64,000 bases of DNA, from assembly GCA_913061005.1 (NCBI GenBank), contig CAJXSH010000001.1, positions 1-64,000 on the forward strand. The letters are read 5' to 3'. Both the position numbers and the translations under genes were made by a program. A model generated the notes under the pieces. That model worked only from the letters and a program-made list of their open reading frames with translations, was not told where the DNA came from and did no database searches. Below are positions 21,628-33,224 of this stretch, piece after piece. Within the stretch, counting starts at the first letter, position 1; each line of letters begins with the position of its first letter. Source of the stretch: an uncultured Ectothiorhodospiraceae bacterium. Lineage in GTDB: Bacteria; Pseudomonadota; Gammaproteobacteria; Nitrococcales; Nitrococcaceae.

Positions 21628-22464
21628 CTAATTTTTCTTGGGTTTTTCTTCGTCAACTATCGTTGAAATAGAACCAGGGGGGCCGGCAAGCTCCATCAAT
21701 CCGCGATCGGTCGAAAGTTTTTCATAAACCCCCTGGGTGGGTGCAATCCATACCTTGCCTGTTCCAGAGAATGTCTGTAGCAAGCCTTCGCCGGAAACCG
21801 AGGTGGCTACCCAGGATTTTGACGATTTTTCGGCTCTGAAGGTTACATTTCCGCTTCGCATGAGTGCGAAATTACCATCAACGGCCAGACGGGACTCTTT
21901 GAGGGTGAATTCCTGAATTTCCGACCGCGGTACCGGCGAGTAGATAATTGCGGTCCCGGTGCCCTTTATTTTCGTCTGAAATAAACCTTCGCCACCAAAA
22001 GCAGCGGAGGAAACATTCTTCTGTGCACTGGCGGAGATATCTAGTCCGGCCGTGCCTGCGTAGAATAGGGACCTGTCGACAATGTATTCCTCGTTATCCA
22101 CTGGAACAAGCATGAAATGGCCGAATGTTGGCTCAAGATAAACCACACCAGTGCCATGGATTTCGCTGACGAAAAAACTTTCGCCCGATAGCGCCTTTCG
22201 GGTGAGGCCCTTCAGAATCCCGCCCCCGGTTGACGCTTTCATCTCAAGGTCTCCCTCCATATAGTAAAGCGCGCCTGGCTCAATGCGGACCTTCGAGCCC
22301 TTCAGCGTGATACGTACGGTCTTCAGTGTCATGCCAGCTTGTTGTATAAAAAACAGCCGTTCGGCGGCCCGGGCGTCCGAGGAGCCGATTAGGCGGTTGT
22401 ATTCAACGATCTCGACAACCGCATCGTCCGTATCATGCTGTTCAATAATGGAGATATCTTCCAT
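21628..22464 (-). CDS. AIM24-like (DUF124 family) beta-rich protein
   Basis: A 278 aa protein without signal peptide. Its repeating short beta segments, with phrases such as LYYMEGDLEMKAS, GESFFVSEIHGTGVVYLEP, FGGEGLFQTKIKGTG and VSGEGLLQTFSGTGKVWIAP, match the tandem beta-barrel organisation of the AIM24/TraF-associated DUF124 family. In yeast the family member is a mitochondrial inner-membrane organising protein; the bacterial function is unclear. The ATG at 22464 is preceded by AAGGAG. It is unlike its Mrp neighbours in base composition and belongs with the lower-GC segment. Confidence 0.72.
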   Translation of the reverse strand: MEDISIIEQHDTDDAVVEIVEYNRLIGSSDARAAERLFFIQQAGMTLKTVRITLKGSKVRIEPGALYYMEGDLEMKASTGGGILKGLTRKALSGESFFVSEIHGTGVVYLEPTFGHFMLVPVDNEEYIVDRSLFYAGTAGLDISASAQKNVSSAAFGGEGLFQTKIKGTGTAIIYSPVPRSEIQEFTLKESRLAVDGNFALMRSGNVTFRAEKSSKSWVATSVSGEGLLQTFSGTGKVWIAPTQGVYEKLSTDRGLMELAGPPGSISTIVDEEKPKKN

Positions 22465-22553: not shown

Positions 22554-24236
22554 TTAGCGACTTAAACCGAATGTCAGCAGCAAGGCCAGCACCAGGGCGG
22601 TCCACAGCGCCATGGACCCAGTGGGCCAGCTGCGCATGGGCCAGCCACTGACACGCAACCGGCAGGCGGCGGCCTCGAGGCGTCGGAAGCCGGTCATGAA
22701 CTCACGGCGAATATCCGCGTTGGCGGTGCTGACGAGGTCTCGGGCGCTGCCAACCCAACGCCGACCCAGGTCGCGATAGAACCAGTCAAAATCCAGGCTG
22801 ATCTTGTCCTTGCCACCCAGGTGCTTGAGTAGAAGGAAAAAGGCAATGCCGGTGAAAAGCAGCAGCTGACCTTCCTTGATCAGATGCGAGGCGGTGTAGG
22901 CGTTGTAGTCCACGGCATACGGCAGAATCGTGTAGAGCAGCTGCGGCATCACCCCGATGACAAAGCACATAAGCGCCGCCAGTCCCATCGCCACGCGCAT
23001 GTTCATTGGCGCCTCGGCGGGCTTCAGGCCGGCATCCCTGCCAAAGAAGGTAAACCAGGGGAGTTTGAGTGTGGTGCTGAGGAAGGTGCCCACACCGGCG
23101 AGCATCATGAGCAAGAAAATCACGCCCCGACCGTCTTCGGCCGCCGCCTCGATGATGATGGTCTTGCTGACGAAACCGCTGAAAAGCGGGAAGGCCGAGA
23201 TGGACAGTCCACCGACCATGTAGAGCAAAAAGGTGACGGGCATGTAGCGATACAGCCCACCCAGTTCGGTGAGCTTGCTGCGGCCTGTCATGTGCAACAC
23301 CGCCCCCGCGCCCATTAGAAGAAGCGCCTTGTAGAGGATATGGGTAAAGGCATGGGCGGCGGTTCCGCTGATCGCCAGGGTTGTCCCGATGCCCACGCCC
23401 GCCACCATGTAACCCACCTGCGAGATGATGTGGTAGGCGAGCAGGCGGCGGATGTCATTGACCAGAAACGCGTAGGTTACCCCGTAGAGGGTCATGCCGA
23501 CGCCCAGCCAGACCAGAAACTCCGTACCCGGAAAGCCTCGCGCGAGCACATAAACCGCCGTTTTGGTGGTAAAGGCGCTTAAAAATACCGTACCCGTCAC
23601 CGTGGCCTCGGGATAGGCATCCGGTAGCCAGGCATGGAGCGGCGGGGCCGCCGCGTTGATCAGAAAAGCCGCAAGGATCAGATAGAAAGCCGGGCCGCCG
23701 CCGGCAAGGGGTTCAAAGGCAAGGCTGCCGGTGTGCAGGTAATAGGCGATGACACCGGCGAAAAGCAGCATGCCGCCCAAGGCGTGGACAATGAGGTAGC
23801 GATACCCGGCCTGGTAGGCGCTGCGCTGCTGCCGGCGCCAGATCAGCCATACCGAGGCCACCACCATGATCTCCCAGAACACGTACAGGGTGACCAGGTC
23901 GCCGGCCAGGGTGGCCCCCAGCGCGGCCGCCGCATACAGCGCGGCTGCCACATGCTGGGCGTTGTCCTCGACCTGCAGGGCAAAGATGTTGCCGATGAAA
24001 AGGATGAGGGCAAAGATGTAGGCGAATACCAGACTCAGCCCGTCCGCGCGCAGGGGCGTGAGCTCGAGGCCGGCCAGCTGCATGGTCACCCGGGTGCCGG
24101 ATTCCAGCGAGGCCACGCTGGCGAGCACCAGCAACGGCAGCACAAGCTGCCATGCCTGACGCCCACGGCCTTGCAGCACGCCGAGCGGCAAGGCCCCGAG
24201 GGCAAGCAGCAAAGCCGGATGGAGCCACTCAGTCAT
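22554..24236 (-). CDS. Third MrpD-like antiporter subunit (D'')
   Basis: A 560 aa polytopic protein of the NuoL/M/N-MrpA/D group (proton-conducting membrane subunit), last gene of the Mrp cluster. The helix-5 glutamate is present (VFWEIMVVAS, Glu122) and so is the helix-8 lysine (FTTKTAVYV, Lys225). The helix-7 lysine of the other two D subunits is replaced by asparagine (FLINAAAPPLHAWLP, Asn194). The C-terminus has an extra soluble segment (about residues 455-530) before a final hydrophobic helix. It overlaps the 98 aa gene upstream by 8 nt. It probably substitutes for part of the missing MrpA N-terminal region, but this is inference. Confidence 0.82.
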   Translation of the reverse strand: MTEWLHPALLLALGALPLGVLQGRGRQAWQLVLPLLVLASVASLESGTRVTMQLAGLELTPLRADGLSLVFAYIFALILFIGNIFALQVEDNAQHVAAALYAAAALGATLAGDLVTLYVFWEIMVVASVWLIWRRQQRSAYQAGYRYLIVHALGGMLLFAGVIAYYLHTGSLAFEPLAGGGPAFYLILAAFLINAAAPPLHAWLPDAYPEATVTGTVFLSAFTTKTAVYVLARGFPGTEFLVWLGVGMTLYGVTYAFLVNDIRRLLAYHIISQVGYMVAGVGIGTTLAISGTAAHAFTHILYKALLLMGAGAVLHMTGRSKLTELGGLYRYMPVTFLLYMVGGLSISAFPLFSGFVSKTIIIEAAAEDGRGVIFLLMMLAGVGTFLSTTLKLPWFTFFGRDAGLKPAEAPMNMRVAMGLAALMCFVIGVMPQLLYTILPYAVDYNAYTASHLIKEGQLLLFTGIAFFLLLKHLGGKDKISLDFDWFYRDLGRRWVGSARDLVSTANADIRREFMTGFRRLEAAACRLRVSGWPMRSWPTGSMALWTALVLALLLTFGLSR

Positions 24237-24525
24237 GACCGTCCGCCCCTTGCTCGTCCTGCCCGCGGTCGTAGTAATCGGGGCGGCGATAGACCAGTCC
24301 GTAACCGATCAGCTTGTACAGGCCGATCAGCGCCAGTGCCCCCAGAAAGGCGTAAATCGCGGTAAAGGCCGGTATCCCATCCCATGCAAACCGGCTGTAG
24401 CCCTTGTCCTTGAGGATGTCCGCCAGGACCACGGCGCCGGCAAGCAGAATAGCGCCGCGGCGTAGCCAGCGGACTTCGCGGACCAGTGTATCGAGGACGC
24501 GGGCGGTGAAATCGACTAAAGCCAT
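24229..24525 (-). CDS. Small membrane protein inside the Mrp cluster
   Basis: A 98 aa protein with two hydrophobic segments (about residues 22-38 and 52-75) and an acidic hydrophilic C-terminus (YYDRGQDEQGADGHD). It sits between two MrpD-like genes and overlaps the downstream one by 8 nt, so it is very probably expressed with the antiporter. I do not recognise it as any of the standard MrpA-G subunits. It could be an accessory subunit that holds the extra D-like proteins. Confidence 0.7.
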   Translation of the reverse strand: MALVDFTARVLDTLVREVRWLRRGAILLAGAVVLADILKDKGYSRFAWDGIPAFTAIYAFLGALALIGLYKLIGYGLVYRRPDYYDRGQDEQGADGHD

Positions 24526-24545
24526 CGCTGTATCGCCTCCGGGTC

Positions 24546-25994
24546 TCAGGACAACGCGCCGGTCAAAAGGTGGTAGGCCGGGTCGGCCAGGACAAACAGC
24601 ACCAGCGTGCCGGCGGCCGTGAGCAGCAGGGGGATCAGGCAGAGCGCCGGTGCCTCGTTGACCCCGCTCGCGCGATCATCCGGCGGCGGTTTGAGAAAGG
24701 CCCGGGTGACCGGCGGCAGGAGGTAGGCGATATTCAGCAGGGTGCTGAGGACGAACGCGCCGACAACCAGATAGTGGCCCGCGCTGTAGGCGCCGCTGAC
24801 CAGATACCATTTGCTCCAGAACCCGCCGCTGGGCGGCAGTCCGATCACGCACAGCGCCCCCACAAAGAACGCCAGCATGGTCAACGGCATGCGTCGGGCC
24901 AGTCCGTCCATGCCGCTGACGGTGTTGATCCCGCTGGCGATGTAGATGGCGCCGGCGCAGAAAAATAACGTGATCTTGCCAAACCCGTGCATGAGCATGT
25001 GCAGCCCGCCGCCGAGGGCCGAGAGCTCGGTGGCCAGCAGGGCACCGGTGACAATGTAGGCAAGCTGGCTGACCGTCGAGTAGGCGAGTCGCGCCTTGAG
25101 ATTGTCCTGGTGCAGCGCCACCAGTGAGGCAGCAATCATGGTGAACACCGCGATGTAGAGCATCAGCGGTTGGGTGGCCAGCCCGCGCAGGTAGTCCAGT
25201 CCAAAGATGAAAAGCGCCACGGTGAGCATGCTGAAAACGCCGGCCTTGACCACCGCCACCGCATGCAGGAGTGCCGAGACCGGTGTGGGCGCGACCATGG
25301 CGGCCGGCAGCCAGCGGTGGAAGGGCATCAACGCCGCCTTGCCGATGCCATAGGCGAGCACCACGAGCAGCAGTGCCCCGAGTGCCGGATCGACGCGGCC
25401 GGCCATGATCCCCTCGGGTCTAAAGGCCAGGGTGCCGGTGAGCATCCAGATCGCGACCATCGCCGGCAGCATCAGCCCGACACTGGTGACAAGCAGCAGC
25501 GCCAGATAGGTGCGCGCACCACTGCGGGCCTTGTCGGTGCCGGTGTGCGCCACCAGCGGATAGGTCGAGATCGACAGTATTTCGTAGAACAGATACAGGG
25601 TGAGCAGGTTTTCGGCAAAGGCGATGCCCATGGCGGCGCCCAGGGCAATGGCGTAGCAGGCCATGAAGCGGGCCAGATTGCCGTAGCCGCCATGTTTCAT
25701 GTACCCCAGGGCATAGGGTGTGGCGACGATATAGAGCGTCGCAGCGAGCAGGGCAAAGGTCAGCCCCAGGGGTTGGACGGCCAGCGCAATCTCAAGGCCC
25801 GGCATGATCTCGAGCAGCGTCACCGCCCGGGTGTCACCGGCCACGACATAGGCCGAGGTCAGCATGACCACCGCGGCGAACAGTGGCAGCGGTGTGGCAA
25901 AGCAAAGGCCATCCCGCAGCCGCGGTCGATGGGCGGCGAGCGCGATGGCCACCGCACCGATCATCGGAATGGCAACCGCGGTGAGAGGCGTCAT
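24546..25994 (-). CDS. Second MrpD-like antiporter subunit (D')
   Basis: A 482 aa protein-translocating membrane subunit related to MrpD/NuoN. It carries the conserved charged residues of a working half-channel: Glu138 (FYEILSISTY), Lys219 (GIGKAALMPFHRWLP) and a helix-8 lysine (AVVKAGVFS). The ATG at 25994 overlaps the stop of the upstream mrpD gene by 4 nt (ATGA). The longer open frame starting at 26285 runs antiparallel to no promoter and is a high-GC artefact. It resembles the paralogous D subunits found in expanded Mrp clusters of haloalkaliphiles. Confidence 0.85.
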   Translation of the reverse strand: MTPLTAVAIPMIGAVAIALAAHRPRLRDGLCFATPLPLFAAVVMLTSAYVVAGDTRAVTLLEIMPGLEIALAVQPLGLTFALLAATLYIVATPYALGYMKHGGYGNLARFMACYAIALGAAMGIAFAENLLTLYLFYEILSISTYPLVAHTGTDKARSGARTYLALLLVTSVGLMLPAMVAIWMLTGTLAFRPEGIMAGRVDPALGALLLVVLAYGIGKAALMPFHRWLPAAMVAPTPVSALLHAVAVVKAGVFSMLTVALFIFGLDYLRGLATQPLMLYIAVFTMIAASLVALHQDNLKARLAYSTVSQLAYIVTGALLATELSALGGGLHMLMHGFGKITLFFCAGAIYIASGINTVSGMDGLARRMPLTMLAFFVGALCVIGLPPSGGFWSKWYLVSGAYSAGHYLVVGAFVLSTLLNIAYLLPPVTRAFLKPPPDDRASGVNEAPALCLIPLLLTAAGTLVLFVLADPAYHLLTGALS

Positions 25995-27484
25995 CGGCCA
26001 ACCCCCAGGGCACCGCCGGCCAGGGCCTCCGCTGCCGCGGTGGCGCCGCCCAGGGTCAACCGGGTATCGAGACCAAAGTAGAAATTGGCCGCTACCAGCA
26101 GCCAGACCGGGCCGAGCAGCCACCAGGCCGCCTCGTTCACGGCCGGGGCATCCGCCGGTCGCGGGCGCAGCCAGGCGGTCTCCACCACCCGGGCGATGTA
26201 GACGAGCGCCATGAGCGAGGTGATGAGGATGAGCACCACCAGCCAGGCCTGGCCGGCGTCCAGCGCCGCCGAGATCAGCACCCACTTACTGATGAACCCG
26301 GCCGTTGGCGGCACGCCGATCAGGCTGAGTCCTGCCAGTGCGAACGCCGTCAGGGTCCACGGCATCTGCCGGCCAATGCCCTGCAGGTCCTGGATCCGCA
26401 CGCTGCCGGCCTGGTAGGCGACGATGCCAACGCTGGCAAAGAGTGCCGCTTTCATCAGACCGTGGTTGAACAAATGCAAAAAGGCCGCGCCCAGGCCGGC
26501 GACACTCACCAGGCTCACCCCCAGGACCATGTAGCCGACCTGGGCCACCGACGAGTAGGCGAGCATGCGTTTGAGGTTTTCCTGCAGGATGGCAAGCCAG
26601 GACCCGGCGAACATGCCGGCGATGGCGAGGACCATCAAGGCGCTGGCAAGCGGCAGGGCGGCAAAGCTGTAAGCCGGCCCGAACACATCGAACACCACCC
26701 GCAGCATCACATAGAGCGCCACCTTGGTGGCCGTGGCCGCCAGAAACGCGGTAATCAGTGTCGGCGCGTAGGTATAGGCATTGGGCAGCCAGTGGTGCAG
26801 CGGAAAGAGCGCCAGTTTGATGGCCAGGCCCACCACGATAAAGCCGAGCGCCACCTGAAGGGCGCGCGAATCACTGACCCCCGGCAGTCGCTCGGCCAGA
26901 TCGACCATGTTGAGGCTGCCGGTGAGGATGTACAAAAACGCGATCCCGATGAGCAGAAAGGTGGCGCCCACGGTGCCCATGATCAGATAGCGGAATGCTG
27001 CCAGCAGCGCTCGACGGTCCCGGCCATGGGCGATCAGCCCATAGGTGGCCAGCGACGAGATCTCGAGAAAGACAAAGACGTTGAACACATCGCCGGTCAG
27101 GGTGATGCCCAGTAGTCCGGCCATGGCGATGAGAAAAAGCGCATAGAACACCCCCTGGCGTTCGGGCACTTCGGCGTCCACCGTCGGTGCCGCCCAGGGC
27201 AGAAGGATCGTCGCCACCCCGGTGATGAGCAACGCGACGAGGGCGTTGGCCGCATCGACCCGGTATTCGATGCCGATGGGCGGTGGCCAGTTACCAAAGG
27301 CGTAGCGCAGGGTGGTGCCGTCCATCACCCCGGCCAGGGTGGTCGCGGCAATGATGAAAGCCCCCGCCGTGGCCGCCACGGCAAGCAACCAGGGCAGCCG
27401 TCGGCCGGGTAGCAGGGCACAGACCGGGCCAGCCAGCAGGGGCAGCAGGACGATGAACGGCATCAGCTCGACGAGACGGGTCAT
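25991..27484 (-). CDS. mrpD: Na+/H+ antiporter subunit MrpD
   Basis: A 497 aa inner-membrane subunit of the Mrp (Mnh/Pha) cation/proton antiporter, homologous to the NuoL/M/N proton pumps. The charged residues are intact: Glu141 in FLEISSLATYG, Lys223 with His230/His231 in AIKLALFPLHHWLP, and a lysine in TATKVALYV. It overlaps mrpC upstream by 4 nt and the D' gene downstream by 4 nt. It is the canonical D subunit of the three found here. Confidence 0.92.
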   Translation of the reverse strand: MTRLVELMPFIVLLPLLAGPVCALLPGRRLPWLLAVAATAGAFIIAATTLAGVMDGTTLRYAFGNWPPPIGIEYRVDAANALVALLITGVATILLPWAAPTVDAEVPERQGVFYALFLIAMAGLLGITLTGDVFNVFVFLEISSLATYGLIAHGRDRRALLAAFRYLIMGTVGATFLLIGIAFLYILTGSLNMVDLAERLPGVSDSRALQVALGFIVVGLAIKLALFPLHHWLPNAYTYAPTLITAFLAATATKVALYVMLRVVFDVFGPAYSFAALPLASALMVLAIAGMFAGSWLAILQENLKRMLAYSSVAQVGYMVLGVSLVSVAGLGAAFLHLFNHGLMKAALFASVGIVAYQAGSVRIQDLQGIGRQMPWTLTAFALAGLSLIGVPPTAGFISKWVLISAALDAGQAWLVVLILITSLMALVYIARVVETAWLRPRPADAPAVNEAAWWLLGPVWLLVAANFYFGLDTRLTLGGATAAAEALAGGALGVGR

Positions 27485-27840
27485 TGCGGCTCCTGCGCCT
27501 CGGCGGCGTCAATCGCGTCATCGTCGATGCTGCCGTAGGCCTCGTGGATACGCACTGTCAGTGCCAGTCCCAACGCGGTGGTGGCGATACCCACGACAAT
27601 GGCGGTGAGGATGAGCACATGGGGCAGGGGATTGGAGTAGACCTCGACGCCGTCACGCAATACCGGTGTCGAGCCGCCGATGACCTTGCCGGCCGAGATG
27701 AACAGGATGAACACCGAGGTCTGGAAGATGCCCAGTCCGATGATTTTCTTGATCATGTTGCCGCGGACGATGACGCAGTAGTAGCCGATCATCATCAAAA
27801 CGATCACTGCCCAGTAGTTGAAAAAGCTCAAAAACGTCAT
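27481..27840 (-). CDS. mrpC: Na+/H+ antiporter subunit MrpC
   Basis: A 119 aa NuoK-like subunit with three helices. The signature NMIKKIIGLGIFQTSVFILFIS and the LPHVLILTAIVVGIATTALGLAL segment are characteristic of MrpC. The C-terminus is acidic. Its ATG overlaps the mrpB stop (ATGA) and its end overlaps mrpD by 4 nt. Confidence 0.92.
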   Translation of the reverse strand: MTFLSFFNYWAVIVLMMIGYYCVIVRGNMIKKIIGLGIFQTSVFILFISAGKVIGGSTPVLRDGVEVYSNPLPHVLILTAIVVGIATTALGLALTVRIHEAYGSIDDDAIDAAEAQEPQ

Positions 27841-28328
27841 GGGCGCGGCTCCCTGCGCGATTCGTCTTCATCCAGCGGGTCCACCAGCGGCAGCCCCTCG
27901 GCCTCGGCCTCGGCGCGGCGACGGGCAAAGAGCAGGAAAAACAGCATCACCACGCTGGCCACGGTGATGCCCACCCCCAGTTCGACCAGGATGATGCCCG
28001 CCTGCTGGGCGGCCCTGGGCGCGGGGAGGAGGACCGAGAAATCCAGATAGTGCCCCCCCAGCAACGAGCCGAGCAGGCCGATCAACCCGTAGAGCAACAC
28101 ACCCAGACAGGCCAGTGCATAGATGACGCGCTCGGGGATGATGCGAAGGCCTGTCTCGAGGCCGTAGATGAACACGAACAGAATCCAGCCAGCGGCGAAC
28201 AGCACCCCGGCCTGGAATCCGCCGCCGGGTGAATACTCGCCATGAAACTGGACATACAGCCCGAAGAGCATCATCAAGGGGATCAGAAACCGGGCGACGA
28301 CCACCAGGATGGCATTGTCTTTCATCAC
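27837..28328 (-). CDS. mrpB: Na+/H+ antiporter subunit MrpB
   Basis: A 163 aa MnhB-domain protein with four hydrophobic helices. The diagnostic stretch is FGLYVQFHGEYSPGGGFQAG. The acidic C-terminal tail (about residues 140-163) is hydrophilic. It overlaps both neighbours by 4 nt, which points to tight stoichiometric coupling. Confidence 0.92.
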   Translation of the reverse strand: MMKDNAILVVVARFLIPLMMLFGLYVQFHGEYSPGGGFQAGVLFAAGWILFVFIYGLETGLRIIPERVIYALACLGVLLYGLIGLLGSLLGGHYLDFSVLLPAPRAAQQAGIILVELGVGITVASVVMLFFLLFARRRAEAEAEGLPLVDPLDEDESRREPRP

Positions 28329-28849
28329 CGGTCTCCTTTGTCGCGCCGACGCGGACGGGTCGCCAGCAATGCATAGACCCCCAGGCCGGCGGTCAGGATG
28401 ACCACCGCCTCACCCATGGTGTCGATGGATCGATAGCTTGCCAGTACCGCCGCCACCATGTTGGGGATGCCCATATCGGCGTAGGTCTGCTCGATGTAGT
28501 ACGGGCCAACGTGCTGATGGACCGGATTGGCGGGATCGCCGAACTGCGGCAGATCAAGCGATGCGTAGACCAGTGCCGCGCCGGTGATGGTGACAATGAC
28601 AAGCGCCGGCAGGCTGTGCCCGGCCTTGGTTGTCTCGAAACGCGGCGTCAATGCCAGCACGGCGAGAATCAGCACGGTGCTGATGCCGGCGCCGACCGCC
28701 GCCTCGGTGAGGGCGACATCGCCGGCGTCAAGCAGGGCGAAAAGCCCGGCGATGGTCAGCGAATAGATCGCAAACAGCATGGTGGCCTTGAGCAGATCGC
28801 GGGTCAGCACCACGGCCAGACCGACAACCACCAGAAAAAGCAGCAGCAC
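28325..28849 (-). CDS. MrpA C-terminal-type subunit (DUF4040 + MbhE-like), stand-alone
   Basis: A 174 aa membrane protein corresponding only to the C-terminal end of a normal MrpA. A DUF4040/MbhD-like part covers about residues 1-75 (ALTEAAVGAGISTVLILAVLAL) and an MbhE-like part about 80-170 (ASYRSIDTMGEAVVILTAGLGVYALL). The start is GTG at 28849, 8 nt after the mrpG stop. The large NuoL-like N-terminal part of MrpA is not encoded next to it. This split form is also seen in archaeal Mbh/Mrp clusters. Confidence 0.85.
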   Translation of the reverse strand: MLLLFLVVVGLAVVLTRDLLKATMLFAIYSLTIAGLFALLDAGDVALTEAAVGAGISTVLILAVLALTPRFETTKAGHSLPALVIVTITGAALVYASLDLPQFGDPANPVHQHVGPYYIEQTYADMGIPNMVAAVLASYRSIDTMGEAVVILTAGLGVYALLATRPRRRDKGDR

Positions 28850-28857
28850 GATGTCGA

Positions 28858-29217
28858 TCAGGTGTTCGATGACGAAGGCTCCTCTTGGTTGGGGTCGCGG
28901 GCGTCGTGACCGGAAGCCGTCACCGGCCTGATCCCCGCAAGCATGGCCGCCCGGGCGGTGGCATGGGAGGCGGTGGGCGTGGTGAAGAGCAGGAACAGCA
29001 GGATCAACAATAGCTTGAGCGTCAGCAGGCTCCAGCCCGATTGCAGCGCCAGGCCGCCAACGATCAGAAGCGGCGCCAGGGTGTCGGTGATGCTGCCGGC
29101 ATGCAGCCGGGTGTAGACGTCCGGAAAGCGGAGCAGTCCGATGCCGCCGATCATCGCAAAGCCCCCGCCGGCCAGCAGCATCAGCATCGAGGCGATGTTG
29201 AGCACCGATTCAGTCAT
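28858..29217 (-). CDS. mrpG: Na+/H+ antiporter subunit MrpG
   Basis: A 119 aa protein with three hydrophobic helices. It carries the MnhG signature GGIGLLRFPDVYTRLHAGSITDT. The C-terminal tail is charged (DARDPNQEEPSSSNT). It overlaps mrpF by 8 nt and is in the order E-F-G. Confidence 0.92.
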   Translation of the reverse strand: MTESVLNIASMLMLLAGGGFAMIGGIGLLRFPDVYTRLHAGSITDTLAPLLIVGGLALQSGWSLLTLKLLLILLFLLFTTPTASHATARAAMLAGIRPVTASGHDARDPNQEEPSSSNT

Positions 29218-29500
29218 GGCCGCGCTCGCCGCTGGCCGCCAGGTCCCGTCGCCGCACCAGCTTGAGTACCGCGATCACGGCAAGGAAGTTGATCAGCGCA
29301 TACACAAGCGCCACATCGATCAGATCATCGTGGCCGGTAAAGTAGGTGATCAGGGCAATCAGCAGGACCGTTTTGGTACCGAAGACGTTCACCCCGACGA
29401 TGGTGTCGTAGATGGACTGCCCGCGGACCGCCCGCCAGAGGGCCATGGCCATGGTGGCAAAGATCGCCAGGATGCAGACGAGCAGCCCCATCTCCATCAT
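29210..29500 (-). CDS. mrpF: Na+/H+ antiporter subunit MrpF
   Basis: A 96 aa three-helix protein. The MnhF pattern is visible in RAVRGQSIYDTIVGVNVFGTK and in the DVALVYALINFLAVIAVLK helix. It overlaps mrpE by 4 nt and mrpG by 8 nt. Confidence 0.9.
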   Translation of the reverse strand: MMEMGLLVCILAIFATMAMALWRAVRGQSIYDTIVGVNVFGTKTVLLIALITYFTGHDDLIDVALVYALINFLAVIAVLKLVRRRDLAASGERGHD

Positions 29501-29976
29501 CGGCCGCTCTCCAGCCAGTCGACCCGTCTCGCCATCTCGCCGCTGCGCAGATCCTCCGCGGCGGCCGGCAACAGCGCGTGGACCTGCAGGTCTTCATCGT
29601 CACTGGGCAACTCGGTGGTGATGGTGCCCGGCGTGAGGGTGATCGAGTTGCCATAGGTCACCCGCCCGACCAGCGTCTGCTGCGAGGCCCGCACCTGGAG
29701 CAGTCGAGGCCGGATCGGCCGGCGCGAGAGCACCGCCCGGCTGACCATCAGGTTGGCCAGCACGACCTGCCAGAGCAGCCATCCCCAGTAGACCGGCAGC
29801 CGCCACGACCAAAGCCCCGCGTCATGTTCGGCGCCGAGGACTTCCATGCGCTCGGTCAGCCAGACCACCAGCGCGATGGATGCACCGCCGAGGCCAAAGA
29901 TCAGGGGCTTGTAGACCCCCGAGAGACTCAGCCAGAGTGCCGCCAGCATCAATGACAGTGAGATGAAATACCGCAT
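29497..29976 (-). CDS. mrpE: Na+/H+ antiporter subunit MrpE
   Basis: A 159 aa MnhE-domain protein, first gene of the Mrp cluster. Two N-terminal hydrophobic helices are followed by a cytoplasmic domain with the typical motif TYGNSITLTPGTITTEL. I chose the ATG at 29976 (MRYFISLSL), since the longer frame to 30063 adds an improbable hydrophilic leader over the phoB regulatory region. No strong ribosome site is visible before this ATG. The cluster is divergent from phoB. Confidence 0.88.
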   Translation of the reverse strand: MRYFISLSLMLAALWLSLSGVYKPLIFGLGGASIALVVWLTERMEVLGAEHDAGLWSWRLPVYWGWLLWQVVLANLMVSRAVLSRRPIRPRLLQVRASQQTLVGRVTYGNSITLTPGTITTELPSDDEDLQVHALLPAAAEDLRSGEMARRVDWLESGR

Positions 29977-30113: not shown

Positions 30114-30797
30114 GTGGCGACGATTCTGCTGGTCGAAGACGAAGAAGCCATCCGCGAGATGGTGGCCATGGCGCTGGAGCGTGCCGGCTACCGGGTGCGG
30201 CACGCCGAGTCGGCCGAGGATGCCGATGCGGCCATGCGATTGAGCCAGCCGGATCTGGTGTTGCTCGACTGGATGCTCCCCGGTGAATCCGGCATCGATT
30301 TTGCGCGTCGGCTCAAACGCGACCGCGCGACCCGCGAAATCCCCATTATTCTTTTGACCGCCCGCGGCGAGGAGGGGGACCGTATCCGTGGACTGGATGC
30401 CGGCGCCGATGACTACGTCCCCAAGCCGTTTTCGCCACGCGAGCTGGTCGCGCGCATCAAGGCGGTGTTGCGGCGGGTCCAGCCCACGGCCGCGGACCAG
30501 CCGGTCGAGGTTCGCGGCCTGCGCCTGGACCCGGTCAGTCACCGGATCACCGGGCACGGGCAGGCCCTTGCCATGGGCCCGACGGAGTTTCGTCTGCTGC
30601 ATTTTCTCATGACCCACCCGGATCGCGTATTCAATCGTGCCCAGCTTCTCGATAATGTCTGGGGAGCGAATGTTTATGTCGAGGAGCGAACGGTCGATGT
30701 CCACGTCCGTCGATTGCGCAAGGCGCTGGCGATCAGCGGCCACGAAGATCTGGTGCAGACGGTTCGGGGCGCGGGCTACCGTTTCTCGGCCGAGTAG
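30114..30797 (+). CDS. phoB: Phosphate regulon response regulator PhoB
   Basis: A 227 aa OmpR-family regulator. The receiver domain (1-120) has acidic residues at 8-9, phospho-acceptor Asp52 in [11 protein letters not shown] and Lys104 in PKPFSPREL. The winged-helix DNA-binding domain (about 130-226) contains [19 protein letters not shown] and the overall sequence are distinctive for PhoB. The start is GTG at 30114. It is followed 12 nt later by phoR. Confidence 0.95.
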
Positions 30798-30809
30798 GCA
30801 ACGGCACTG

Positions 30810-32126
30810 ATGGGTAACCCCTGGCCGGCGGCCCTGACCCGGACAGGCCTGAGCCTGGTGGCGGCGCTTCTGCTGGGGCTGGCGGTGGGCCGGCCCTGGC
30901 TGGTGCTGGCAGTGGCCGCACTGGCGCTGCTTGCCTTCAACCTGGTGCAGACCCACCGGCTCGAGCAGTGGCTGCGCCGTTCGAATCGGCAGCGGCCGCC
31001 AGCAGCCGAGGGCCTGTGGGGCGGCATTTTCTCGGCCATCGACCGGCGACAGTACCGGCGCCGTGGCCGGCTGCTGCGATTGCTTGACCTGCTGCAGCGG
31101 TTTCGCGAGAGCGTCAGCGCCATGCCCGACGGGGTGATCATGCTCGCCGGCGAGGGCGAGATGCAGTGGTGGAACCGCCTGGCCAGCCGCTACATGGGGC
31201 TTCGCTGGCCCCAGGACCGCGGCCAGCGCATCGCCAATCTACTCAGACATCCCGATTTTGCGGCTTTCCTTGGCCGGGGCGACTGGAATGCCGCGGTCAA
31301 GATTCCCTCGCCCCAGGACGCCGACCGAACCCTCGAGATCCGGATTGTCCCCTACGGCTCGGATCGTCAGCTGCTGCTTGCCCGGGATGTCTCGGAGCTG
31401 GACCGGCTCGAGACCATGCGGCGGGATTTTGTCGGCAACATCTCCCATGAGCTGAGAACGCCACTGACCGTGCTGCGCGGGATGTCCGAGCAGCTCAATG
31501 ACTCTGACGCGGCCGCGAGCGGCGAGCTGCAGCGGCCGCTGGCGCTGATGGAGCAGCAGGTGGGCCGCATGAGCCGGCTGGTGGACGATTTGCTGTTGCT
31601 CTCGCGGCTCGAGACCGAGAGCCCGCCGGTTGAGCCCGGGCCGGTGGTGGTGGCCGAGCTGCTGCGCGATGTCCAGGACGAGGCCAAGGCGCTCAGCGGC
31701 GGCGAACATACCATCACCCTGACCGCCGATGAGGCATTGCAGGTCGAGGGCGACCGGGACGAGCTGCGCAGCGCGTTTTCCAATCTGGTCAGCAACGCCG
31801 TGAAATACACCGAAGCCGGCGGGCGGATCGATATCCGCTGGTTCGAAGCGGCCGGCGCGGCGTGTGCGGCGGTGGCGGACACCGGCAAGGGCATTCCGGC
31901 CCATCATCTGCCCCGCCTGACCGAGCGGTTCTATCGTGTCGATGCCGGCCGGGCCAGTCGTGAGGGCGGGACAGGGCTGGGACTTGCCATCGTCAAGCAT
32001 GTCCTCTCCCGTCACGGGGCACGGCTTTCGGTGACCAGCGAGCAGGGTGTGGGCAGCACCTTCACGGCGGTGTTCCCGCACTACCAGCGGGTCAAGACGA
32101 CGACACCGGCGTCACAACCAGATTGA
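30810..32126 (+). CDS. phoR: Phosphate regulon sensor histidine kinase PhoR
   Basis: A 438 aa inner-membrane kinase. Two hydrophobic helices lie at the N-terminus (about residues 8-45). A basic linker and a PAS-type domain (about 95-195) follow. The HisKA motif NISHELRTPLTVLRGM has phosphorylated His213. The HATPase domain has N-box SNAVKYTEAGG, G1 DTGKGI and G2 GGTGLGLAIVKH. It senses PstSCAB/PhoU state rather than phosphate directly. It pairs with phoB and lies just before pstS. Confidence 0.95.
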   Translation: MGNPWPAALTRTGLSLVAALLLGLAVGRPWLVLAVAALALLAFNLVQTHRLEQWLRRSNRQRPPAAEGLWGGIFSAIDRRQYRRRGRLLRLLDLLQRFRESVSAMPDGVIMLAGEGEMQWWNRLASRYMGLRWPQDRGQRIANLLRHPDFAAFLGRGDWNAAVKIPSPQDADRTLEIRIVPYGSDRQLLLARDVSELDRLETMRRDFVGNISHELRTPLTVLRGMSEQLNDSDAAASGELQRPLALMEQQVGRMSRLVDDLLLLSRLETESPPVEPGPVVVAELLRDVQDEAKALSGGEHTITLTADEALQVEGDRDELRSAFSNLVSNAVKYTEAGGRIDIRWFEAAGAACAAVADTGKGIPAHHLPRLTERFYRVDAGRASREGGTGLGLAIVKHVLSRHGARLSVTSEQGVGSTFTAVFPHYQRVKTTTPASQPD

Positions 32127-32132
32127 TGAGAC

Positions 32133-32166
32133 GGGTCACAGTCCTGTCACATTTGTTCACTAATCT
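32133..32166 (+). promoter_or_regulatory. Pho box and -10 element of pstS
   Basis: Two 7 nt direct repeats in the 7-4-7 arrangement, GGGTCAC (32133-32139) and CTGTCAC (32144-32150), sit 10 bp upstream of a -10 TAATCT (32161-32166). This is the classical layout of a PhoB-activated promoter, where the Pho box replaces the -35. A third partial repeat (TTCAC, 32156-32160) follows. Confidence 0.72.
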
Positions 32167-32207
32167 CCTCTCCGCACTTACCTGAAGCACTAACGAGGAG
32201 ATTCCTC

Positions 32208-33224
32208 ATGACGACTTGGAAGACGACTGCCCTTGCCGTTGCTGCGGCCGTTGGCATGACCTCTGTTGCCGTAGCCCAGGAGCGCGAGCAGATTCGCATC
32301 GTGGGTTCCAGCACCGTTTACCCGTTTGCCAGCTATGTGGTCGAAGAGTTTGGTGCGACCACCAACTATCCCACCCCGGTCATCGAGTCCACCGGCTCGG
32401 GTGGCGGCATGCGCCTTTTCTGCGAGGGTGTCGGCGTCAGCACGCCGGACATCACCAACGCTTCGCGCCGCATGAAGCCGAGCGAGTTTGATCGCTGCAT
32501 GGAAAACGGGGTGACCGACATCACCGAGGCGACCATCGGCTACGACGGCATCGTCCTTGCCCAGAGCAACGACAACGACCCGCTTGAGCTGACTCGCGAG
32601 CAGATCATGCTGGCGGTTGCCGCACAGGTGCCGCAGAACGGCGAGATGGTGGACAACCCCTACACCAACTGGAGCGAGATCGATTCGAGCCTGCCCGATC
32701 GCGAGATCGAGGTCCTCGGACCGCCGACCACCTCGGGTACTCGGGATGCCTTCGAAGAGATGGTCATGGAAGAGTCCGCCGAGGGACTGGGTTTCCCTGA
32801 GGAATACACTGAAATCCGCGCCGACGGTGTCTACGTGGACTCGGGCGAGAACGATAACCTGATCGTCCAGCGGATTAACGAAAACGAGGACGCCATCGGT
32901 GTGTTCGGCTACGGGTTCCTGGTGGAGAACACCGACATCATCCAGGCGGCCACGATCGACGGCGTCGAGCCCACCCCGGAGACCATCGGCAGCGGTGAGT
33001 ATCCGGTCGCCCGGAGCCTGTGGTTCTACATCAAAGAGGCCCACGAGGGTGTGATCCCGGGCATTGACGAGTACGTCAGCCTGTTCATGGATCCCATCAT
33101 GATCGGCCAGGATGGTCTGCTCAAGGACGAGGGGCTCATCCCGCTGCCTTCCGATGCACTCGCCGAGTGGAGCGATCGCGTCGAGAACCGGGTCAACCTG
33201 CAGCGCAGCGACCTGGAAGGCTAA
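32208..33224 (+). CDS. pstS: Phosphate ABC transporter substrate-binding protein
   Basis: A 338 aa periplasmic phosphate-binding protein. The signal peptide MTTWKTTALAVAAAVGMTSVAVA is cleaved before QEREQ. The phosphate-binding motifs VGSSTVYPFA, ESTGSGGGMRLFCEG and PPTTSGTRDAF are clear. The mature protein is strongly acidic and has very few lysines (four in the whole sequence), a typical salt adaptation for a protein exposed to the medium. It is preceded by a Pho box, and two large inverted repeats lie after the stop. Confidence 0.93.
   Translation: MTTWKTTALAVAAAVGMTSVAVAQEREQIRIVGSSTVYPFASYVVEEFGATTNYPTPVIESTGSGGGMRLFCEGVGVSTPDITNASRRMKPSEFDRCMENGVTDITEATIGYDGIVLAQSNDNDPLELTREQIMLAVAAQVPQNGEMVDNPYTNWSEIDSSLPDREIEVLGPPTTSGTRDAFEEMVMEESAEGLGFPEEYTEIRADGVYVDSGENDNLIVQRINENEDAIGVFGYGFLVENTDIIQAATIDGVEPTPETIGSGEYPVARSLWFYIKEAHEGVIPGIDEYVSLFMDPIMIGQDGLLKDEGLIPLPSDALAEWSDRVENRVNLQRSDLEG

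Follow-up and report, generated by a model that had tools for sequence, protein, structure and literature searches.

The 64,000-nucleotide stretch of DNA analysed here, referred to below as the window (contig CAJXSH010000001.1 of assembly GCA_913061005.1, from an uncultured Ectothiorhodospiraceae bacterium), carries a head-to-tail cluster of ten genes on the minus strand (29976-22554) that probably encodes a multisubunit cation/proton antiporter of the Mrp type, with a three-gene module in place of MrpA-N, the NuoL-like N-terminal half of MrpA. The cluster reads E-F-G-A'-B-C-D-D'-98aa-D'', where A' is the C-terminal end of MrpA, D, D' and D'' are antiporter-like subunits and 98aa is an unnamed membrane protein of 98 amino acids (aa); the module is D'-98aa-D''. 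Our reasoning for this is that the subunit set lacks only MrpA-N and that the module is conserved and stands in the place of NuoL in a form of complex I. Furthermore: (i) D'' and mrpA exclude one another among 40 related genomes; (ii) D' and D'' fall in clades common to both machines; (iii) a single protein at one locus, L036, joins D'' to the DUF4040 end; (iv) helix spans in D'' fit this position and (v) the 98-aa protein is paired with D''.

Subunit content and conservation of the cluster

Pfam matches above cut-off show that a single operon holds MrpB, MrpC, MrpE, MrpF, MrpG and the DUF4040 end of MrpA, which gives the cluster the subunit set of an Mrp antiporter in the broad, group 3-like sense. 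Full-length MrpA with a NuoL-like N-terminal part, which characterises groups 1 and 2, appears to be missing; A' comprises MbhD and MbhE only. Profile matches and coordinates thus uphold an earlier note on this DNA, which had given the same gene order and had recognised only the DUF4040/MbhE-like end of MrpA. Of 15 regions from relatives, 13 have all ten genes in identical order and two are interrupted by contig ends; the arrangement is therefore no assembly artefact.

We consider it very unlikely that the ten genes form the membrane arm of another enzyme, similar to the archaeal membrane-bound hydrogenase (MBH) or membrane-bound sulfane sulfur reductase (MBS), with its redox part encoded elsewhere. 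The closest sequence matches of D and D'' among solved structures, MbsH and MbsH' of MBS, would fit such an enzyme, but the operon contains no hydrogenase-like gene, its flanks encode AIM24, PhoB/PhoR-type regulators and a PstS-type binding protein, and the ten genes remain together in 13 relatives. Scanning the ten genes and eight flanking proteins revealed no complex I redox/quinone subunits (NuoB-D, H and others) and, in a search of this locus rather than of the whole genome, no MBH/MBS hydrogenase-like subunits J, K, L, M or N.

No mrpA found in the genome or its congeners

A genome-wide search agreed with the earlier note that the NuoL-like part of MrpA is absent. The window's genome (1.65 Mb in 37 contigs, 84.7% complete) gave six matches to PF00361, namely D, D' and D'' and three on another contig that, judged from their sizes and order, are probably nuoL, nuoM and nuoN; MbhD occurs once. 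With the TIGR00940 (MrpA) profile there was no match of MrpA length in this genome, the top score (229 bits) falling on a nuoL-sized frame; genuine MrpA scores 637-959 bits in 21 relatives, and a 22nd has two fragments. A search of 13 congeners, of which six are near-complete in one to three contigs, and of two D''-bearing relatives of other genera likewise gave no full-length mrpA. The incompleteness of the window's genome is what speaks for an ordinary Mrp antiporter whose mrpA lies elsewhere, with D' and D'' as accessories; given that none of these relatives has the gene, this explanation is already nearly refuted and we assign it almost no weight.

The survey of relatives covered 40 genomes, including the window's own, with D'' called at no fewer than 754 bits and MrpA (TIGR00940) at no fewer than 636 bits. 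D'' alone was present in 16 genomes, mrpA alone in 22 (one fragmented), both in none and neither in two (Fisher p 2.4e-9). D'' occurs in all 14 genomes belonging to the genus; its other two carriers are single species from two further genera of the family. Two family members, G021 and G022, have neither gene, and G021 (L168:1-9000) has other large antiporter-like frames. A six-gene Mrp cluster is reported in the Spiribacter genome paper (PMC3832224); here and below, statements about papers cited by PMC number refer to the excerpts available.

The module in Mrp and complex I loci

Scanning with D'' confirmed at least 584 relatives, of which the best 80 loci were analysed. These comprised 13 Mrp-type loci (one interrupted by a contig end), one Nitrospirota locus (L036), 54 complex-I-type loci and 12 that remained unclassed. 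The 54 complex-I-type loci were classed from gene order by script, with a Pfam check for two of them (L032 and L022); the Sinorhizobium meliloti locus was read from its annotation. L032 and L022 contain nuoH and nuoJ-nuoK-D'-98aa-D''-nuoM-nuoN without nuoL, the nuo genes, D' and D'' being identified by Pfam and NCBIfam, and on S. meliloti pSymA the order is nuoJ-nuoK-D'-hypothetical-D''-nuoM-nuoN. The hypothetical protein (L173:8679-8933) is a homologue of the 98-aa protein, and a subunit of this type is thus unnamed in the S. meliloti enzyme too. The arrangement of L032, L022 and pSymA is that of the published "green" complex I (Sinorhizobium pSymA and many Desulfobacterota), in which two MrpD-like subunits substitute for NuoL (PMC9040806). 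From these gene orders, D'-98aa-D'' is a conserved module that takes the place of NuoL in green complex I. Our literature search, which was thin on subscription papers and mostly short of full texts, found no mention of the 98-aa gene or of an exchange between Mrp and green complex I.

The phylogeny was built by quick search from 89 of 159 assembled rows, with Shimodaira-Hasegawa-like approximate likelihood ratio test (SH-aLRT) support. The D' proteins of Mrp-type and complex-I-type loci group in one clade (99), to which a single divergent Mrp copy is sister, and the D'' proteins of both machines form another (100), which has MbsH' as sister (96). S. meliloti D'' also lies within the D'' clade. 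D' and D'' are therefore orthologous to the green complex I pair. MrpA and NuoL share a further clade (99), and canonical MrpD and the D of L036 share another (100); D of the window's cluster type forms a clade of its own (99), apart from canonical MrpD. The earlier note had spoken of three D-type subunits, which holds for the fold (each matches PF00361) and fails for ancestry: neither D' nor D'' lies inside canonical MrpD in this tree. A single clade of Mrp-type D' was rejected at the borderline (approximately unbiased test, p 0.049), which may suggest repeated swapping of the module between Mrp and complex I.

The note's comparison with archaeal Mbh/Mrp layouts also stood only in part. The window's order does recur in archaea, in Haloarcula marina without the 98-aa gene and in anaerobic methanotrophic archaea (ANME-2) with it, but the module is shared with green complex I and is not an Mbh trait.

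Some congeners have a second Mrp-like cluster (L172:1-7001 in G005, with matching frames in G002). It encodes a D'-like protein that is sister to the D' clade, and its other two large subunits are very divergent.

The 98-aa protein

A hidden Markov model (HMM) of the 98-aa protein found matches in 93 of 95 loci with D'', and the two exceptions have D'' right at a contig start; no match came from the 20 control loci, which carry canonical mrp, nuo or further antiporter genes. Among 299 Pseudomonadota genomes the protein was found in 16 and D'' in 15, with both in 14 (Fisher p 4.7e-21). The matches in the two genomes that lack D'' are marginal (E 2e-4 and 6e-4); the sole D'' genome scored as lacking the protein gives a match at E 7e-7 when the locus is searched alone. 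Judged from this co-occurrence, the protein appears to be a near-obligate partner of D''.

The 98-aa protein has no Pfam or NCBIfam match at E 0.001, and its matches in the PDB are weak and of repeat type. Its structural model (predicted local distance difference test score, pLDDT, 83) has helices at residues 2-16, 18-38 and 54-78, which would correspond to an amphipathic helix followed by two membrane helices. A fold search with this model returned a best E of 6, two-helix models being uninformative in such searches. The ratio of nonsynonymous to synonymous substitution rates was 0.24-0.34 in the five of six window-congener pairs that yielded a value, and the protein is under purifying selection.

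Position of D'' and length of its lateral helix

D'' occupies the position of MrpA-N or NuoL, and a NuoL-like role is thus not simply missing from the cluster. We place D'' at the end of the row because of its predicted lateral helix and because L036 encodes D'' and the DUF4040 end as a single protein of 771 aa, which matches MrpA models over most of the models' length. In the model of the window's D'' (pLDDT 83.5, with lower confidence in this part) a helix of 43 residues (484-526) precedes a terminal helix (542-559), and the fold matches include MrpA, NuoL and MbsH' among others.

According to the literature, the length of the lateral helix tracks pump number (PMC7684303) and a 26-aa helix insertion accompanies one further pump (PMC9040806). 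We measured helix span as the number of residues between a conserved motif and the last membrane helix. The span is 54 in the window's D'' and 47-58 across 32 Pseudomonadota Mrp-type rows, the window included. It is 54 in 3/3 NuoL (59 from another anchor, less 5), 18-23 for MrpA (9/15 measurable, one doubtful; 23-28 from another anchor, less 5), 60 in Haloarcula D'' and 77-83 in 53 of 56 complex-I-type D'' rows, the other three giving 27, 27 and 47. The window's span therefore equals that of NuoL (three pumps), exceeds that of MrpA (two) and falls short of that of green complex I (four).

Observations that weigh against replacement of MrpA-N

Four sets of observations count against this interpretation. 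The first concerns the helix spans, which range over 42-93 (median 81) in ten Mrp-type D'' of other phyla (Desulfobulbaceae, Desulfotignum, ANME and Chloroflexi) whose loci show only three antiporter subunits; as these loci break the rule, we rejected the idea of the helix as a ruler that holds as a general law. Two close ANME relatives differ in span (42 vs 93), and some of the ten deviant values may have been wrongly measured. In three of the ten loci (L033, L062 and L068) D'' is nested among complex-I-type D''.

The second is that Asn replaces the lysine of transmembrane helix (TM) 7 in 102 of 112 D'' rows (two duplicate pairs included, L139 = L008 and L147 = L009), among them that of the window (Asn194). 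This lysine is among the key residues termed absolutely conserved and essential (PMC7419157), and we found it in all other antiporter-like rows tested except MbsH, which has Glu. Its loss argues against D'' as a working pump, and D'' may be without pumping activity. It would then be a structural end-cap that provides the lateral helix and moves no protons, leaving two working channels (D and D') and the stoichiometry of an ordinary Mrp antiporter. We regard an end-cap as rather unlikely, since the TM5 Glu, TM8 Lys, TM11 His and TM12 Lys are retained by every D'' row of the residue alignment and by the 22 rows of another listing. Moreover, one clade of ten (L194, L195, L197-L200 and L203-L206) has Lys at the TM7 site again through a single change on the tree (support 99), which suggests that the site still matters. 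A lysine of the 98-aa protein as compensation for that missing from D'' was unsupported: the protein occurs with both Asn and Lys forms of D'', and Haloarcula has Asn in D'' and no 98-aa gene.

The third is that the MrpF Asp35 site, reported to be essential (PMC7419157), is Asn in 22/24 Mrp-type rows, that of the window among them, and Gly in the remaining two; canonical rows have Asp (7/15) or Glu (8/15). The cation path may therefore be altered. Of the other cation-path residues checked (MrpA E706, D792 and E796; MrpF D29), the MbhD Glu and the Asp and Glu of the DTxGE motif are kept in A', and D29 is kept in MrpF. MrpC His37/His40 proved useless as a test for sodium binding because canonical MrpC proteins of the same order also lack them.

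The fourth is that Haloarcula marina has the window's gene order minus the 98-aa gene, and the 98-aa protein is therefore not universally needed. Fusion of the 98-aa protein into Haloarcula D' was considered and rejected, as the longer D' holds a polar insertion and not the two-helix sequence.

A working model

Despite these points we favor a complex in which D'-98aa-D'' replaces MrpA-N. Inference gives good support to a single complex holding three antiporter-like subunits; it is a more speculative step that all three work as channels, which would change the stoichiometry. In a plausible scenario, cation export would fall to E, F, G, A' and B, while D, D' and D'' would be aligned in the membrane in that order, with the D'' lateral helix tying them together, and the 98-aa protein would act as a small clamp at the D'/D'' boundary. 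Proton influx via D and D', with D'' as a possible third route, might drive the export of Na+ (or K+). One proton channel more than in an ordinary Mrp antiporter would allow sodium to be expelled against a steeper gradient, which would fit a salt-excluding halophile.

A broader proposal, which we advance tentatively because we hold it somewhat more doubtful than the replacement itself, is that D'-98aa-D'' is a portable pump cartridge, replacing MrpA-N in antiporters and NuoL in complex I and adding one proton channel per machine. The length of the D'' helix would be matched, like a ruler, to how many antiporter subunits there are, the 98-aa protein would be a subunit of both machines and D'' would work with Asn at TM7. 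The system bears on the number of ions moved per cycle by Mrp and complex I and on the coupling of antiporter units. In both machines two subunits take the place of one end subunit, which provides matched sets of two, three and four units, and D'' proteins with and without the TM7 lysine, together with a small, deletable, unnamed partner, make stoichiometry and coupling testable by comparison. Swapping the module may change the number of protons traded per sodium ion.

Gene table and neighbouring genes

Coordinates and profile matches of the ten genes are collected in Table 1. Eight of the nine gene junctions overlap or leave a gap of at most 8 base pairs (bp), and the ninth, between D' and the 98-aa gene, is 20 bp. 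An alternative GTG start for A' lies upstream, near 28873. Directly downstream of the cluster, on the same strand, is a gene for an AIM24-family protein (21628-22464), and divergent genes upstream (30114-33224) encode a PhoB-like regulator, a PhoR-like kinase and a PstS-like binding protein.

Table 1. Genes of the Mrp-type cluster, in order of reading (window positions).
Gene product	Position	Strand	Length and matches
MrpE	29497..29976	-	159 aa, ATG start; PF01899 MNHE, E 3e-24
MrpF	29210..29500	-	96 aa; PF04066; Asn at the MrpF Asp35 position; aligned to 6z16_F and 38 other MrpF rows
MrpG	28858..29217	-	119 aa; PF03334
A' (C-terminal MrpA end only, DUF4040)	28325..28849	-	174 aa; PF13244 MbhD and PF20501 MbhE; NF009159 above cut-off
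MrpB	27837..28328	-	162-163 aa; PF04039; NF009162 above cut-off
MrpC	27481..27840	-	119 aa; PF00420; top PDB match MbsG 6u8y_G
D, antiporter subunit in MrpD position	25991..27484	-	497 aa; PF00361; top PDB matches MbsH, then MbhH
D', first antiporter subunit of the module	24546..25994	-	482 aa; PF00361; top NCBIfam NF006236, 501 bits, below cut-off of 663
98-aa two-helix membrane protein	24229..24525	-	unnamed family; adjoins D''
D'', terminal antiporter subunit with lateral helix	22554..24236	-	560 aa; PF00361; NF009310, 696 bits, cut-off 564; MrpA-N/NuoL position

Comparison with known systems

Green complex I is like the window's cluster in having the same D'-98aa-D'' module in the same order, with D' and D'' in common clades. 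It differs in that its module, with a longer lateral helix, stands beside NuoM and NuoN (four pumps) in a redox enzyme, whereas the window's module accompanies a single D in an Mrp set devoid of redox genes. Pyrococcus MBS (6u8y) supplies the best PDB sequence matches of D and D'' (MbsH and MbsH') and has a lateral helix in its end subunit; unlike the window's cluster, it has two antiporter subunits and a ferredoxin-linked peripheral arm, and no counterpart of the 98-aa protein was found in it. As no hydrogenase genes lie in the neighbourhood, MBH is a poor analogue.

There is precedent for Mrp clusters of irregular composition. The cyanobacterial group 3 Mrp (mrpCD1D2EFGAB; PMC5703873), compared by description only, shares an irregular order and extra D-type genes; its gene order is different, and neither the identity of the module nor a 98-aa gene is mentioned in the available text. 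In Ca. Nitrospira alkalitolerans, likewise compared by description, two NuoM/NuoL-like genes just downstream of mrpD were judged to be additional mrpA/mrpD-like genes (PMC7784846), a placement like that of D' and D''; a link to green complex I and a 98-aa gene do not figure in the available text. Mrp clusters with extra subunits are thus already in print, and the cluster described here is a variant of these.

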